Assembly: GCA_001871075.1 (NCBI GenBank) | Contig: MNUP01000051.1 | Span: 1-45,225, forward strand | Source of the DNA: Candidatus Desantisbacteria bacterium CG1_02_49_89 | GTDB lineage: Bacteria; Desantisbacteria; UBA1551 | Direction of reading: 5' to 3' | Length of the DNA stretch: 45,225 nt | In this document: piece by piece, positions 4,166-45,225 of the stretch | Position numbering within the stretch: position 1 is the stretch's first letter | Layout of the letters: each line of letters opens with the position of its first letter | The notes under the pieces: generated by a model | Told to the model about the DNA's origin: nothing | Databases searched by the model: none | The model's input: the letters and a program-made list of their open reading frames with translations, nothing else | Translations under genes and position numbers: made by a program

Positions 4166-4804
4166 CTATATTTTTCTTATTACTAGCTTAATTTTCCCCG
4201 CGACCCAGACTTGTTTGTCCGCAGGATTAACAAATATCGGCTGCATAGATTCGTTTGCGGGCTGAAGACGAAGCCTGCCGTCTTTTTCCTTATATAATCT
4301 TTTTACCGTGGCTTCTCCGTCTATGAGAATAACTACGGTATCACCATTATAATCGGGAACTTCTTGTTTGTGTACTATTACATAGTCGCCATTAAATATT
4401 CCGGCATCAATCATACTATTACCTTTAACACGCAGAGCAAAAACGTCCTGAGGATTCTTTACAAACGAATTATCAACCGCGAGACTGCCTTCGATGTTCT
4501 GCACGGCAAAAATCGGTTCACCTGCAGCAACCCTGCCGACAATAGGAATATTAACTGCAGAAACACCATTACCGTTTCCGTTGGTTTTTCCATTCGTAAG
4601 CCGAAGACTGCGGGATTTATGAGGATCGCGTTTGATATAACCCTTTCTTTCAAGGGCAAGTATATGGTCTTTGGAAGCATTGGGGGATTTAAAGGAGAAT
4701 TTCTTCTGGATGTCCAAATAAGAAGGCGCATAGCCACAATCTGTTGTGCTCTGCTCAATGAAGCCCAGGATTTCTTTTTGCCTTTTAGTTAGTTCGCCGT
4801 TCAT
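4166..4804 (-). CDS. lexA: LexA-type SOS repressor heading the R-M operon
   Basis: The 212-aa product has the full LexA layout. An N-terminal winged HTH (about 1-70) has the recognition helix FKSPNASKDHILALERKG, which shares the SPNA core of E. coli LexA. A Gly/Asn-rich linker (70-82) follows. The C-terminal S24 peptidase-like domain has the self-cleavage site GRVAAGEP (A94-G95) and the Ser-Lys dyad S130 (KGNSM) and K168 (EATVKR). It would repress until RecA filaments trigger self-cleavage. The start has a good ribosome site (AGGAG). A matching CTGT-type operator sits in the promoter at 4954-4982. The next gene starts 12 bases on, so the R-M genes very likely share the transcript. Whether this is the only lexA of the genome cannot be judged. 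Confidence 0.93.
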   Translation of the reverse strand: MNGELTKRQKEILGFIEQSTTDCGYAPSYLDIQKKFSFKSPNASKDHILALERKGYIKRDPHKSRSLRLTNGKTNGNGNGVSAVNIPIVGRVAAGEPIFAVQNIEGSLAVDNSFVKNPQDVFALRVKGNSMIDAGIFNGDYVIVHKQEVPDYNGDTVVILIDGEATVKRLYKEKDGRLRLQPANESMQPIFVNPADKQVWVAGKIKLVIRKI

Positions 4805-4953
4805 TTAAACTCCTGATTGTGAGATAAATCGCTCTCCTAACTGACTGGCGGGCAGGCACCGCTACAAATGTCCCGATAAATCGGGACTGCTACTTTACGC
4901 AAAGCAAGCTCTGCCACTACTACAGAAAAGCCCTTATTTCCTTTACGTTATAT

Positions 4954-4982
4954 ATTATACTATAAATTTTTACAGTTGTCAA
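4954..4982 (-). promoter_or_regulatory. Consensus sigma70-type promoter of lexA-R-M operon
   Basis: The minus strand has a perfect TTGACA (4977-4982), a 17-base spacer and a perfect TATAAT (4954-4959). Transcription would start near 4947 and give a 5' leader of about 140 nt before lexA. The leader contains a perfect GTCCCGAT/ATCGGGAC hairpin at 4870-4887. A promoter this strong needs a repressor, in line with the embedded LexA box. Confidence 0.85.
4960..4975 (-). promoter_or_regulatory. LexA (SOS) box inside the promoter spacer
   Basis: The minus strand reads CTGTAAAAATTTATAG, a CTGT-N8-ATAG site one base off the E. coli-type consensus CTGT-N8-ACAG, with flanking A and T extending the symmetry. 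It fills the spacer between -35 and -10, the classical place for a LexA operator. The LexA encoded just downstream has the SPNA recognition helix that reads CTGT half-sites, so protein and site agree. Confidence 0.8.
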
Positions 4983-5409
4983 GTAAAAAATGAAATTTCA
5001 TGCATTTTTGCAAAAATTATCTCTTCTTGACAAATGCAGGCAAAAAAATAGATTGCTTCACTTTGTTCGCAATGACCCTACTACGCCAAGGCTTCGTAGG
5101 GCAGGCAAAAATCCCCCTCACCCTAACCCTCTCCCACTCTGGGGAGAGGGAAAATGCAGGGCACACACCACAAAACTGCTGCATGTCGGATAAATCCGAC
5201 CGCTACAAGGGCGGGCAAGGTCGCCCCTACGCGAAAATGTCGGACGAATCGGGCGTCATAAATGTCGCCCGTTGATGAATCAAGCCCCTTCAACTAAAAT
5301 TATGAATTATGATTTATACCCCGAGGGGCATTATGAATCAAAAGCAAGGATGTTTATTTAAATAAAATTTCTTCACTCATAACTCATAATTCATAACTCA
5401 TAATTGAAT
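4983..5409. other. Gene-free spacer with repeat debris
   Basis: No gene is supported here. It holds a CT-rich segment with the palindrome CTCTCCCactctgGGGAGAG (about 5129-5148), related to the C-rich repeats near 8430 and 13925. It also has a GTCGGATAAATCCGAC hairpin (about 5185-5200), similar in style to the one in the lexA leader. At 5376-5405 there is a degenerate CATAACTCATAATT word array ending at the stop of the next gene. Confidence 0.6.
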
Positions 5410-15070: not shown

Positions 15071-15131
15071 ATTATCTCCAAGGATAAGGATTTTTTAAGA
15101 ACTGGCATAGAACCTTAGGAATAGAGCCTTC

Positions 15132-15183
15132 AGGAGTAGACCCTTTAGGGTCGTAAAACAACGGGGCTAAAGCCCCTACTCCT
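15132..15183. repeat. Three-stem repeat (AGGAGTAG type), copy 1
   Basis: The outer stem AGGAGTAG/CTACTCCT encloses two hairpins, ACCCTttAGGGT and GGGGCTaaAGCCCC, giving a three-way-junction shape. A copy with one mismatch in about 50 bases is at 30970-31020. The GAATAGAGCCTT just before it looks like a decayed further arm. Confidence 0.8.
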
Positions 15184-15286
15184 AAATACGCACTAACCTT
15201 CTTTATTTATCAGGGCTCCCTCCTTAAAGATTTCCTCCTTAAAAAATTGGCGGACAAGGGCGGGTCTTCGAAAAGCCCTGAGCTAT

Positions 15287-15334
15287 CCGCCCCGATGTCC
15301 ATCGGGGCGAGACCTCACCCCAAAGGGGCGGGCG
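15287..15334. repeat. CCCCGATG..CATCGGGG palindromic repeat, copy 1
   Basis: GCCCCGATGtccATCGGGGC is followed by GAGACCTCACCCC and an AAAGGGGC complement. The same sequence is at 22859-22905, and a shorter copy is inside a gene at 40971-41000. Confidence 0.75.
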
Positions 15335-22502: not shown

Positions 22503-22595
22503 CGTTTACCTACAATATTGAGCTCATCAAAAGGCGTATATAGTTGAATAGTCGAATTGTGTAAGGAAATTTAAAATAAATTCCTTGCACTACCG

Positions 22596-22729
22596 AAGAG
22601 CCATCGATACAGTTCTGGCTCGAAGGTCCCTGTGTTGAGCTGCGCAGCAGCTACAGGGGCAAATACATCGACCCCGTTCTGACCCGAAGGTCCCTGTGTT
22701 AAGTTCCAGTTTCATCGGAACTACAGGGA
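22596..22729. repeat. Two dispersed palindromic units (type 1)
   Basis: Unit 1 (22596-22658) has stem GAGCCA/TGGCTC, a CGAAGG linker, then lower stem TCCCTGT/ACAGGGG with its last pair broken, bulge GTTG and upper stem AGCTGC/GCAGCT. In unit 2 (about 22673-22729) the first stem is eroded; its second hairpin is TCCCTGT, bulge GTTA, AGTTCC/GGAACT, ACAGGGA. They lie in a gene-free spacer of about 510 bases (22503-23014) that also holds the repeats listed next. Confidence 0.85.
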
Positions 22730-22808: not shown

Positions 22809-22857
22809 AACTCAGACCTTCAGGTCTGATAAAATATCAGGGCTGAAGCCCTGAGTT
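22809..22857. repeat. Three-stem repeat (AACTCA type), copy 2
   Basis: AACTCA/TGAGTT encloses AGACCTtcAGGTCT and CAGGGCTgaAGCCCTG. It matches 19310-19353 with paired substitutions in the first inner stem. Confidence 0.75.
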
Positions 22858-22858
22858 A

Positions 22859-22905
22859 TCCGCCCCGATGTCCATCGGGGCGAGACCTCGCCCCAAAGGG
22901 GTCCC
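22859..22905. repeat. CCCCGATG..CATCGGGG palindromic repeat, copy 2
   Basis: It is nearly identical to 15287-15320 through GAGACCTC(G/A)CCCCAAAGGGG, then diverges into GTCCCtttGGGAC. Confidence 0.75.
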
Positions 22906-24155: not shown

Positions 24156-24220
24156 CTTACCCCCGTTTTAGATTCAGAGAGTCAAAGAGTCAGAGAGTCA
24201 AAGTAAATACTCTCTGTGCC

Positions 24221-24420
24221 GTAGGGTCATCAGTGTGGCTCTGACCCGCAGGTCCCTGTGTTGAGTTCCAGCGTTATACCGAAGAACCATTCGCCTCGTT
24301 CTGGTTCGTAGGTCCCTGTGCCGCAGCCCGCCACGAATATTGGCGGGCGTAGGTCCCCCCTGTCACTTTCGAAAGAAAGTAGGGGGGATCCTGGGGCTAC
24401 AGGGATCGGAACTACAGGGA
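24221..24420. repeat. Three palindromic units nested inside one another
   Basis: The outer unit has stem GGGTCA (24224-24229)/TGACCC (24242-24247), then left arm TCCCTGTgttgAGTTCC (24253-24269) and right arm GGAACTACAGGGA (24408-24420). In its loop lies unit 2: GAACCA/TGGTTC (24284-24307), left arm TCCCTGT..AGCCC (24313-24329), right arm GGGCTACAGGGA (24394-24405). In the loop of unit 2 lies unit 3: CCCGCCA/TGGCGGG (24327-24347), then TCCCCCCTgtcACTTTC, loop gaaa, GAAAGTAGGGGGGA (24354-24388). All three keep the bulge on the 5' side only. The rest of the spacer 24156-24569 holds word arrays (GTCAAAGAGTCAGAGA at 24181; GAACGAAGAACGATG at about 24500) and a GCCCGCCA..TGGGCGGG hairpin at about 24540. 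Confidence 0.9.
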
Positions 24421-26556: not shown

Positions 26557-26668
26557 ATCCCTATAGTTCCTGTTAACGGAACTAACCATAGGGATCCTTT
26601 ATGGACAATTAACAATTTACCCCTTGCAGGTTTTTTATTAAACCCAAACGCAGGGGTTCTTTATGAAC
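26557..26668 (-). repeat. Two dispersed palindromic units (type 2), reverse orientation
   Basis: Unit 1 (26557-26606) read on the minus strand is GTCCataaaGGAt, then ATCCCTAT, bulge GGTT, AGTTCC/GGAACT, ATAGGGAT; an identical copy is at 38032-38081. Unit 2 (26619-26668) is GTTCataaaGAAC, then CCCCT..GGGTTT/AAACC..AGGGG. GTCC/GGAt versus GTTC/GAAC is a compensating difference. Both lie within the spacer 26520-26984. Confidence 0.8.
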
Positions 26669-26763
26669 AATGAAGGAATTTGTTGAAATAAAAACCTTGA
26701 ACCTCGGAACCACGGAACTTCGGAACCCCGGAACCAGTATTCTAACGATTTAACAACGATTCC

Positions 26764-26880
26764 CGGAGAGCCATAGACATGGCTCTGGCTCATAGGCCCT
26801 CGCGTTATGGTTTCTTCCTAAAGAACCCTCGTGTGTAGATTTCATAAAAAATCTATGAGGGGTAGAAACCTGCAGAGGGT
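26764..26880. repeat. Palindromic unit with a second unit inserted in its loop
   Basis: The outer unit has stem GAGCCA (26768-26773)/TGGCTC (26786-26791), then left arm CCCTCGCgttatGGTTTCT (26797-26815) and right arm AGAAACC (26864-26870) ... GAGGG (26875-26879). Inside its loop a second hairpin runs CCCTCGTgtgtAGATTT (26826-26842) / AAATCTATGAGGG (26849-26861). Both keep a 5'-side bulge of about 4 nt. Confidence 0.8.
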
Positions 26881-28472: not shown

Positions 28473-28792
28473 TTATCCTTTGTAACCACAGGTTAACACA
28501 GGTTAACACTGTTTACCACGAAAGCCCTCTGCTGCTCCGAAGAACCCGGAGCAAAACGCGAGGACCTTCGCCCGCCAATAATCGTGGCGGGCTGCGGCAC
28601 GGAATTTCTGAAGCACGGAATAATATATAGATTTTGCTGACAACTGACCGTATAAAACAAGTTCCCCTTTCTGCTTTCATGAAAAAGCAGGGGAACAACT
28701 CACAACTGGCAACTGCCTTTAGTAACCACGAATTCTACAAATTCCTTGGACCATGAGCTATGAGCAATGAGCTATGAGCGATTTTAACGATG
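28473..28792. other. Gene-free spacer with hairpins and word arrays
   Basis: It contains an ACAGGTTAACAC tandem pair (about 28489-28509), a GCTCC..GGAGC hairpin (about 28533-28551) and a CCCGCCA..TGGCGGG hairpin (28571-28592). At 28661-28696 a bulged hairpin has lower stem GTTCCCCT/AGGGGAAC, bulge TTCT and upper stem GCTTT/AAAGC. At about 28741-28785 a word array (minus strand CTCATAGCTCATTG...) closes with CCAAGGAATTTG next to the URO-D gene end. Confidence 0.65.
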
Positions 28793-30879: not shown

Positions 30880-30969
30880 AGCCTACTTTTTAACCACGAA
30901 TTGTTTGCTTCGCAACATTCTTTGCGGGCTACGTCGATAAACGACGAATTGCACGAATTTTACAACTTG

Positions 30970-31020
30970 AGGAGTAGACCCTTTAGGGTCGTAAAATAAC
31001 GGGGCTAAAGCCCCTACTCC
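30970..31020. repeat. Three-stem repeat (AGGAGTAG type), copy 2
   Basis: It has one mismatch to 15132-15182 over about 50 bases: AGGAGTAG, ACCCTttAGGGT, GGGGCTaaAGCCCC, CTACTCC. Confidence 0.82.
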
Positions 31021-31105
31021 CAAAACTTTTCCACGGAAACACGGAAGGACGGAAACACGGAAAAATCTTTAACTTTGACAAATGGCTAAAGACTACTTTC
31101 AACCT

Positions 31106-31822: not shown

Positions 31823-31870
31823 GTCCCTAAAGGACCCCCGCGCATAGGTTTACAAAAAACCTGCGGGGGT
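31823..31870. repeat. Dispersed palindromic unit (type 2)
   Basis: GTCCctaaaGGAC is followed by CCCCCGC, bulge GCAT, upper stem AGGTTT/AAACCT and GCGGGGG. A relative with compensating changes is at 44105-44153. Next to it, 31895-31932 is a CATAACTCATAATT word array which on the minus strand starts at the esterase stop and closes with AAGCAAGGATTTC. Confidence 0.8.
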
Positions 31871-31937
31871 AGATTGAATTATAATGAAATCCTTGCTTCT
31901 GATTCATAACTCATAACTCATAATTCATAATTATTCT

Positions 31938-33218: not shown

Positions 33219-33225
33219 GAATTCC

Positions 33226-33296
33226 GTAGAGTCATTAGCCCAGCTCTGACTCGAAGGTCCCTGTGTTAAGTTCCGGTTTTATCGGAACTACAGGGA
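33226..33296. repeat. Dispersed palindromic unit (type 1)
   Basis: Stem GAGTCA/TGACTC (33229-33252), linker CGAAGG, TCCCTGT, bulge GTTA, AGTTCC/GGAACT and ACAGGGA (33258-33296). Confidence 0.85.
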
Positions 33297-37927: not shown

Positions 37928-37937
37928 TTTAACTCCC

Positions 37938-38081
37938 GAAGGGTCATTGGCTCGGTTCTGACCCGAAGGTCCCTGTGTTAAGTTCCAGTTTCACCGGAAC
38001 TACAGGGACAAAATACAACAATTTGCAATTTATCCCTATAGTTCCTGTTAACGGAACTAACCATAGGGATCCTTTATGGAC
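37938..38081. repeat. Palindromic units: type 1 forward, then type 2 reverse
   Basis: Unit 37938-38008 has GGGTCA/TGACCC, CGAAGG, TCCCTGT, GTTA bulge, AGTTCC/GGAACT and ACAGGGA. Unit 38032-38081 is identical to 26557-26606, including flanking CAATTT. They fill most of the gene-free spacer 37928-38230, whose end holds a CAAGGAAAT box (about 38150-38165) and a word array next to the following gene end. Confidence 0.85.
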
Positions 38082-44104: not shown

Positions 44105-44153
44105 GTCCCTAAAGGACCCCTGCGTCTTGCTTTCATTAGAAAGCTGCAGGGGT
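44105..44153. repeat. Dispersed palindromic unit (type 2)
   Basis: GTCCctaaaGGAC, then CCCCTGC, bulge GTCT, upper stem GCTTTC/GAAAGC, GCAGGGG. Compared with 31823-31870 both stems differ by paired changes. A CATGACCCATGACACATG word array (about 44036-44063) lies next to it. Confidence 0.8.
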
Positions 44154-45079: not shown

Positions 45080-45091
45080 TTTTCCTCCTCG

Positions 45092-45225
45092 AAGCGCCAT
45101 TGACACAGCTCTGGCGCGAAGATCCCTGTGTTAAGCTCCGAAGGAGCTACAGGGACCGAAGAGTCATTCGCTAAGTTCTGACTCGTAGATCCCTGCGTTG
45201 AACTCCGAAGGAGTTGCAGGGACCG
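45092..45225. repeat. Two 67-bp tandem palindromic units (type 1) with compensating changes
   Basis: Unit 1 (45092-45158) and unit 2 (45159-45225) are exactly 67 bases each. First stems are GCGCCA/TGGCGC and GAGTCA/TGACTC. Second hairpins are TCCCTGT, GTTA, AGCTCC/GGAGCT, ACAGGGA and TCCCTGC, GTTG, AACTCC/GGAGTT, GCAGGGA. Most differences between the units fall in stems and keep pairing. A further unit may follow beyond the window edge. Confidence 0.92.

Follow-up and report, generated by a model that had tools for sequence, protein, structure and literature searches.

The window, by which we mean the whole 45,225-nt stretch analysed here, is contig MNUP01000051.1 of Candidatus Desantisbacteria bacterium CG1_02_49_89 (assembly GCA_001871075.1). 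At positions 24219-24420 of its forward strand, three copies of a short palindromic unit lie one within another, as follows.

24219..24420, + strand: unit 1, the outermost; its hairpin 1 spans 24219-24252 and its hairpin 2, which is broken by unit 2, spans 24253-24420
24279..24405, + strand: unit 2, lying in the hairpin-2 terminal loop of unit 1; its own hairpin 1 spans 24279-24312
24313-24405, + strand: hairpin 2 of unit 2, broken by unit 3, with the 5' inner arm absent
24321..24388, + strand: unit 3, joined on its left within the hairpin-2 bulge of unit 2; its own hairpin 1 spans 24321-24353
24354-24388, + strand: hairpin 2 of unit 3, of the CCCCCC type

The original prediction, made from the letters of this stretch, had described three nested palindromic units, and direct reading, folding, and excision all bear this out. 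The 200-nt stretch has a folding energy of -52.9 kcal/mol versus -29.2 +/- 3.5 kcal/mol for shuffles (z -6.9). When unit 2 is excised and the joined flanks are scanned with a covariance model, a full-length unit 1 is regained (53.8 bits, E ~1e-17), and the excision of unit 3 leaves a unit 2 that is recognised as a unit (~40 bits, E ~1e-12). The stem letters differ among the three copies, and the succession of hairpin 1 and a hairpin 2 with a bulge on its 5' side is common to all of them, as had been proposed. The further claim that each unit sits in a loop of the next is correct for unit 2, but unit 3 joins unit 2 directly after TCCCTGTG, in the hairpin-2 bulge, and the loop of its host is not intact: the 3' inner arm GGGGCT is kept and the 5' inner arm is lost. 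We conclude that the nest probably arose when a non-autonomous mobile double-hairpin element inserted several times in succession.

The unit is 67-77 nt long and is composed solely of two hairpins. Among 118 aligned copies, GNAG precedes both hairpins in more than 100, with a second letter that varies freely. Hairpin 1 is closed by the pairs C1-G34 (CG in 91 copies and TA in 12) and C2-G33, which enclose an internal loop of GNA/GNA. Because nucleotides 1-2 are thus paired with nucleotides 33-34, the two hairpins abut, and the short linker that had been placed between them does not exist. In hairpin 2, an outer stem of 7 bp is followed by a 5' bulge (GTTA/GTTG) and by an inner stem of 6 bp that carries the loop. 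Standard pairs are found in 96% of the cells of the alignment and 483 cells are changed on both sides, which was matched by 0 of 500 shuffles; when the structure is slid by 1-3 columns, only 30-49% of the cells are paired. The alignment was fitted to the covariance model and therefore leans towards the structure, and six hand-picked copies gave an equal result. The hairpins are maintained through compensatory change, and template-switch correction of palindromes could account for part of the stem covariation.

Further copies of the unit were already visible in a repeat scan of the window, and a covariance model trained on six copies from the window finds approximately 110 in this genome. Of 113 copies, 104 lie outside open reading frames of at least 100 aa, a high-copy and mostly extragenic distribution like that of repetitive extragenic palindromes (REPs) of the GTAG type. 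No copy was found in 40 other genomes scanned, only one of them from the same order, or in one relative scanned from the same phylum. Two exact unit patterns had no match in GTDB contigs and one had none in viral contigs, scans from which records of the genome itself may be left out. The possibility of a known RNA family was rejected, there being no Rfam match at gathering score within the window.

The flanks of each unit were joined and the same junction was sought elsewhere in the stretches around matches. An unoccupied counterpart exists for 48 of 97 units, versus 12 if each left flank is combined with the right flank of another unit. Most junctions are exact, in that the whole unit is extra with neither duplication nor loss; in a subfamily with ttcgt|g sites the insertion comes out one base shorter. 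A hairpin near each end, without terminal inverted repeats or target duplication, is also the constitution of palindrome-associated transposable elements (PATEs) and of miniature elements of the IS200/IS605 type.

Nesting recurs throughout the genome. Excision followed by a scan of the joined flanks regained another unit in 15 cases, compared with 1.65 per shuffle over all units for mismatched flanks; these 15 hosts are not fully independent, since two cases at C71 are one composite that was copied and two at C14 lie in a repeated block. The search for nested copies by covariance model that had been suggested thus finds that the pattern is not unique to 24219-24420. The host junctions follow model positions 20 (five cases), 19 (two), 15 (one), 42 (five), and 53 (two), which correspond to the hairpin-1 tip, the hairpin-2 bulge, or the hairpin-2 loop, with none in the main stem. 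Inserts at position 20 belong mostly to one subfamily with a short hairpin 2 (outer arm CCTGCC or CCCGCC), and those at position 42 have the CCCCCC hairpin 2 of unit 3 in the window, or a near relative of it. Hosts of the inserts at position 42 lack the bulge and the 5' inner arm, and the right-hand junction falls within their loop, as can be seen when C124 (...CCCTGTG[unit]TACTATATCGGGACTGCA) is compared with the intact C58 (...CCCTGCGTTTAGTCCCGATTCTATATCGGGACTGCA). Other nests of several levels are found at C14 (~4730-5100), C71 (~270-390), and C19 (~1740-2060). Furthermore, one composite of host plus insert (134 nt, four differences) is present at two C71 sites with unrelated flanks, and therefore a loaded unit can apparently move.

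Hairpins of other kinds also serve as hosts. In 12 of 97 units the flanks pair over at least 7 bp directly at the unit, versus 1.4 for permuted flanks, and the commonest apex of these flank hairpins is CCGA|TCGG. The clearest such host, which we call family C, is a hairpin repeat independent of the unit (TTGACCCCTGCT-hairpin-AAGCTGCTGGGGTCTTCGTCTCTGGGT); it is matched at 17 places in the genome (L123-L137). Its unfilled copies keep a small loop of their own (CTCCGA-tgtataa-TCGGAG, CCCGA-taaa-TCGGG, AATTTC-ttc-GAAATT). In four filled copies the unit stands where that loop would be, between undamaged arms, and its orientation is the same in three of them and reversed in the fourth; a fifth, at C29, contains by reading a nested pair in reverse orientation. 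Family C hairpins often stand in tandem. Units are also inserted in a TCATTGCGA...GAAGC...GACGAAGCAATC repeat family, at C45, C55, C103, C146, C19, and C83.

We propose that the unit is a non-autonomous, REP- and PATE-like element, made of two GNAG-led hairpins and nothing else, whose hairpins would be taken as left and right ends by a Y1 (HUH) enzyme from the group that comprises the IS200/IS605 and RAYT transposases. The element would be joined to unpaired stretches of folded single-stranded DNA. In the hairpins that it has entered, it sits at the hairpin-1 tip, in the bulge, or in the terminal loop, at positions that differ between subfamilies. Repeated rounds, in which a loaded unit would still be mobile, would give rise to the Russian-doll nests. 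We put the probability that the unit is such a successively inserting element, moved by a Y1 enzyme on single-stranded DNA, at about 0.68. A Y1 transposase appears the likeliest mover, judging from the sequences, because the lack of duplication, the two hairpin ends, the GNAG tags, and the unpaired targets fit its action on single strands. More tentatively, and as a possibility that we would not yet call probable, the targets may be structural, with each subfamily tuned to certain unpaired places in a hairpin (hairpin-1 tip, hairpin-2 bulge, or terminal loop), also in its own relatives, and with mobile composites that grow recursively, and the variable letters of GNAG may act as a re-programmable target guide.

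The search of the genome for genes of this kind, which the prediction had recommended, yields ten Y1 transposase genes, all outside the window, in agreement with the earlier statement that the window holds no HUH gene. Seven were scanned, of which six are closest to the model of the REP-associated tyrosine transposase (RAYT), two of them above the cut-off, and one is of the IS200 type. Candidate enzymes for the suggested HUH mechanism are present, six of them RAYT-like by model, but none is flanked by units. The sole IS200-type gene (C83) is flanked by other palindromes, with no unit match in the locus. A search for Y2 transposases gave no signal, and its controls were likewise silent. Several Y1 genes lie between long inverted repeats beginning GGGGAC or GGGAC, and others lie among unrelated palindromes. 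RAYT relatives between long inverted repeats are known as TIRYTs (PMC3733652), and RAYT-like genes have this arrangement at L003 C100 (GGGGACGGGTTCATT), L004 C38 (GGGACAGGCACTATT), L006 C114 (GGGACAGCCCCTATT), and L002 C13 (GGGGGACGGTTC). Short RAYT-like genes occur in tandem palindromes at L007 and L008 (C23; GTAACTCAAACCTTCAGGTTTGA) and at L099 (C111; GCCTCAACTTGTTGAGGG). At C80 (L005:1468-2466), a 332-aa RAYT-like protein has a C-terminal match to the DnaA C-terminal region (TIGR00362, residues 230-322, E 5e-9).

The alternative that survives best, although we regard it as unlikely, is that another enzyme moves the element, whether an IS110-type recombinase, a reverse transcriptase, or a DDE transposase acting on double-stranded palindromes as IS1397 does on REPs, and that the loop position reflects a preference for sequence. 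The genome does encode one reverse transcriptase, several targets are recurring letters (CCGA|TCGG, CCCAG|CTCTG, CTGTG|), and IS1397, ISKpn1, and others target REPs specifically (PMC1525189). A route through IS110 and a bridge RNA was rejected, as no IS110 gene was found in the genome, and the absence of target duplication at most junctions is unlike the three-base duplication made by ISPsy8 in REPs (PMC1525189). Moreover, identical letters are left empty where the arms are not extended: at all 11 occupied CCGA|TCGG sites the arms continue for another 3-4 pairs, whereas of the 16 unoccupied CCGATCGG sites in the genome 15 were inspected and at all 15 the arms continue for 0-1. Family C is filled at TTCT|TTAG as well, which also speaks against a simple choice of letters.

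It is improbable that the palindrome arms at the apex insertions belong to a larger three-hairpin element, such that no hairpin was hit there. This explanation draws on the absence from the genome of any unoccupied CCGATCGG with extended arms, for which there is a comparable absence in the REP dimers of A. variabilis and H. neapolitanus (PMC3733652). It is contradicted by the family C hairpins that stand without a unit at eight or more places, an argument that does not extend to single hosts such as C143 and C47, and by two apex hosts that are themselves complete units.

Template-switching during replication at quasi-palindromes can perfect hairpin stems and would thereby mimic covariation. 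That it produced and corrected the hairpins of copies that are not mobile seems very improbable to us, since it leaves unexplained the dispersed copies of defined length, the exact junctions with empty counterparts, and the composite at two sites. Tandem duplication and drift of a single hairpin cluster, to which the few tandem units (45089-45222; 22593-22729; the repeated block at C14) might point, is ruled out by the complete hosts regained in 15 places at independent loci, by the unrelated hairpin family among the hosts, and by inserts whose subfamily differs from that of the host.

Several observations weigh against movement of the unit by a Y1 enzyme that recognises folded DNA. Approximately one-third of the copies occupy tracts of direct repeats rather than hairpins (e.g., attcgtg|gaaattcgtgg), and hairpin tips are therefore one target class among several. 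Repeated insertion into loops and tips, as originally predicted, accordingly stands with regard to the 15 restored hosts and the empty and filled copies of family C, but it does not describe this third of the copies. No Y1 locus has a good match to the unit (family A) beside it. The strand bias that insertion into the lagging strand might leave is weak, in that 69 of 113 copies are opposite to local genes (p 0.02). The empty sites are all paralogous, within this genome, and none is orthologous because there is no close relative among the genomes compared. A preference for the letters of the loop is a possible alternative to recognition of the folded form. A base-pairing rule between the GNAG tag and the target was looked for and none was found. 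Target class is associated with unit sequence (Mantel r 0.14, 0 of 2000 permutations; 0.13 without pairs of similar far flanks), and the variable letters of both GNAG tags are among the columns most associated with it. Such an association can arise from the relatedness of subfamilies.

The double-hairpin elements of fungal mitochondria have a layout like that of the unit; they are organellar and their sequences are unrelated. In the organelles of Volvox, short palindromes are often inserted into one another in a similar manner (PMC2670323), but these too are unrelated in sequence, no Y1 enzyme is proposed for either kind, and we found no mention there of fixed insertion positions. Closer likenesses are found with GTAG-type REPs and their RAYTs (PMC3733652, PMC2817692, PMC8266576), which share with our system about a hundred short extragenic palindromes, a G-N-A-G just 5' of each hairpin, an irregular bulged stem, and RAYT-like genes in the genome. 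Some REP dimers have also been reported inside palindromes (PMC3733652, PMC2817692, PMC8266576). In our unit, by contrast, the second letter of the tag is degenerate, units flank none of the RAYT genes, and nesting is systematic at fixed positions. REPINs resemble the unit in being doublets that replicate as one, with compensatory changes and exact, excision-like ends, but a REPIN is two inverted REPs that form one long hairpin (PMC3116915), whereas the hairpins of the unit follow each other head to tail, each with a fold of its own. PATEs, which in Haloquadratum derive from IS605-type elements and retain only their termini (PMC3119063), likewise lack terminal inverted repeats, target duplication, and a transposase, and have a palindrome near each end. 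Their palindromes are hit by other small elements (SMR-A) (PMC3119063), that is, by a different class of element and not by the family itself, and for the unit we identified no IS605-type parent whose ends match. Finally, IS1397, ISKpn1, ISPsy8, and others insert at or near the symmetry axis of the REP hairpin, but they are full insertion sequences with their own transposase, and ISPsy8 duplicates three bases (PMC1525189). We conclude that the unit belongs neither to the REPINs nor to a named REP family, and in the literature searched we did not find a description of its combination of a head-to-tail double hairpin, fixed positions, subfamily-specific targets, and recursive nesting.

The spread and targets of REP-like hairpins are poorly understood because their targets and empty sites can rarely be identified. 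In this one genome, exact junctions that can be matched to empty sites number in the dozens, several subfamilies differ in their targets, and the candidate enzymes are few, and thus loop-targeted single-strand transposition becomes directly testable. Palindromes nested in one another have been reported from the organelles of algae and from some REPIN clusters; for a bacterial repeat, as this genome shows, such nesting can be a regular way to grow.

Outside the nest, the window contains the following copies of the unit and, within one of them, a related element that we call family B.

22593..22659, + strand: unit copy, directly followed by the degenerate copy 22661-22729
22661..22729, + strand: unit copy that has lost the 5' arm of hairpin 1
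26763..26879, + strand: unit copy whose hairpin-2 loop contains another hairpin element
26815..26864, + strand: family B element, nested in the host hairpin 2 with GGTTTC on one side and GAAACC on the other; a unit is regained (31.7 bits) when approximately this stretch is removed
28525..28597, - strand: unit copy with a hairpin 1 of the CCCGCCA type
33224..33296, + strand: intact, uninterrupted unit copy, a good reference
37936..38008, + strand: intact unit copy
45089..45155, + strand: intact unit copy, in tandem with 45156..45222
45156..45222, + strand: intact unit copy at the window end

Past position 45222, just outside the window (C135, L009), another unit copy is broken by a run of ten N, which probably marks a scaffold gap where units stand in tandem. 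Family B has a similar hairpin 2 and a hairpin 1 shrunk to GTCC-MTAAA-GGAC; it is found at 31823-31872, 44105-44153, 26558-26670 (- strand), and 38033-38079 (- strand), and it lies in CAATTTA/AGATT direct-repeat tracts and once, as listed, nested in a unit. Two other interspersed palindromic repeats occur in the window as pairs that are 95-96% identical, one at 15128-15186 and 30966-31024 (GGAGTAGACCCTTTAGGGTC...) and the other at 15273-15328 and 22846-22901 (ATCCGCCCCGATGTCCATCGGGGCG...).
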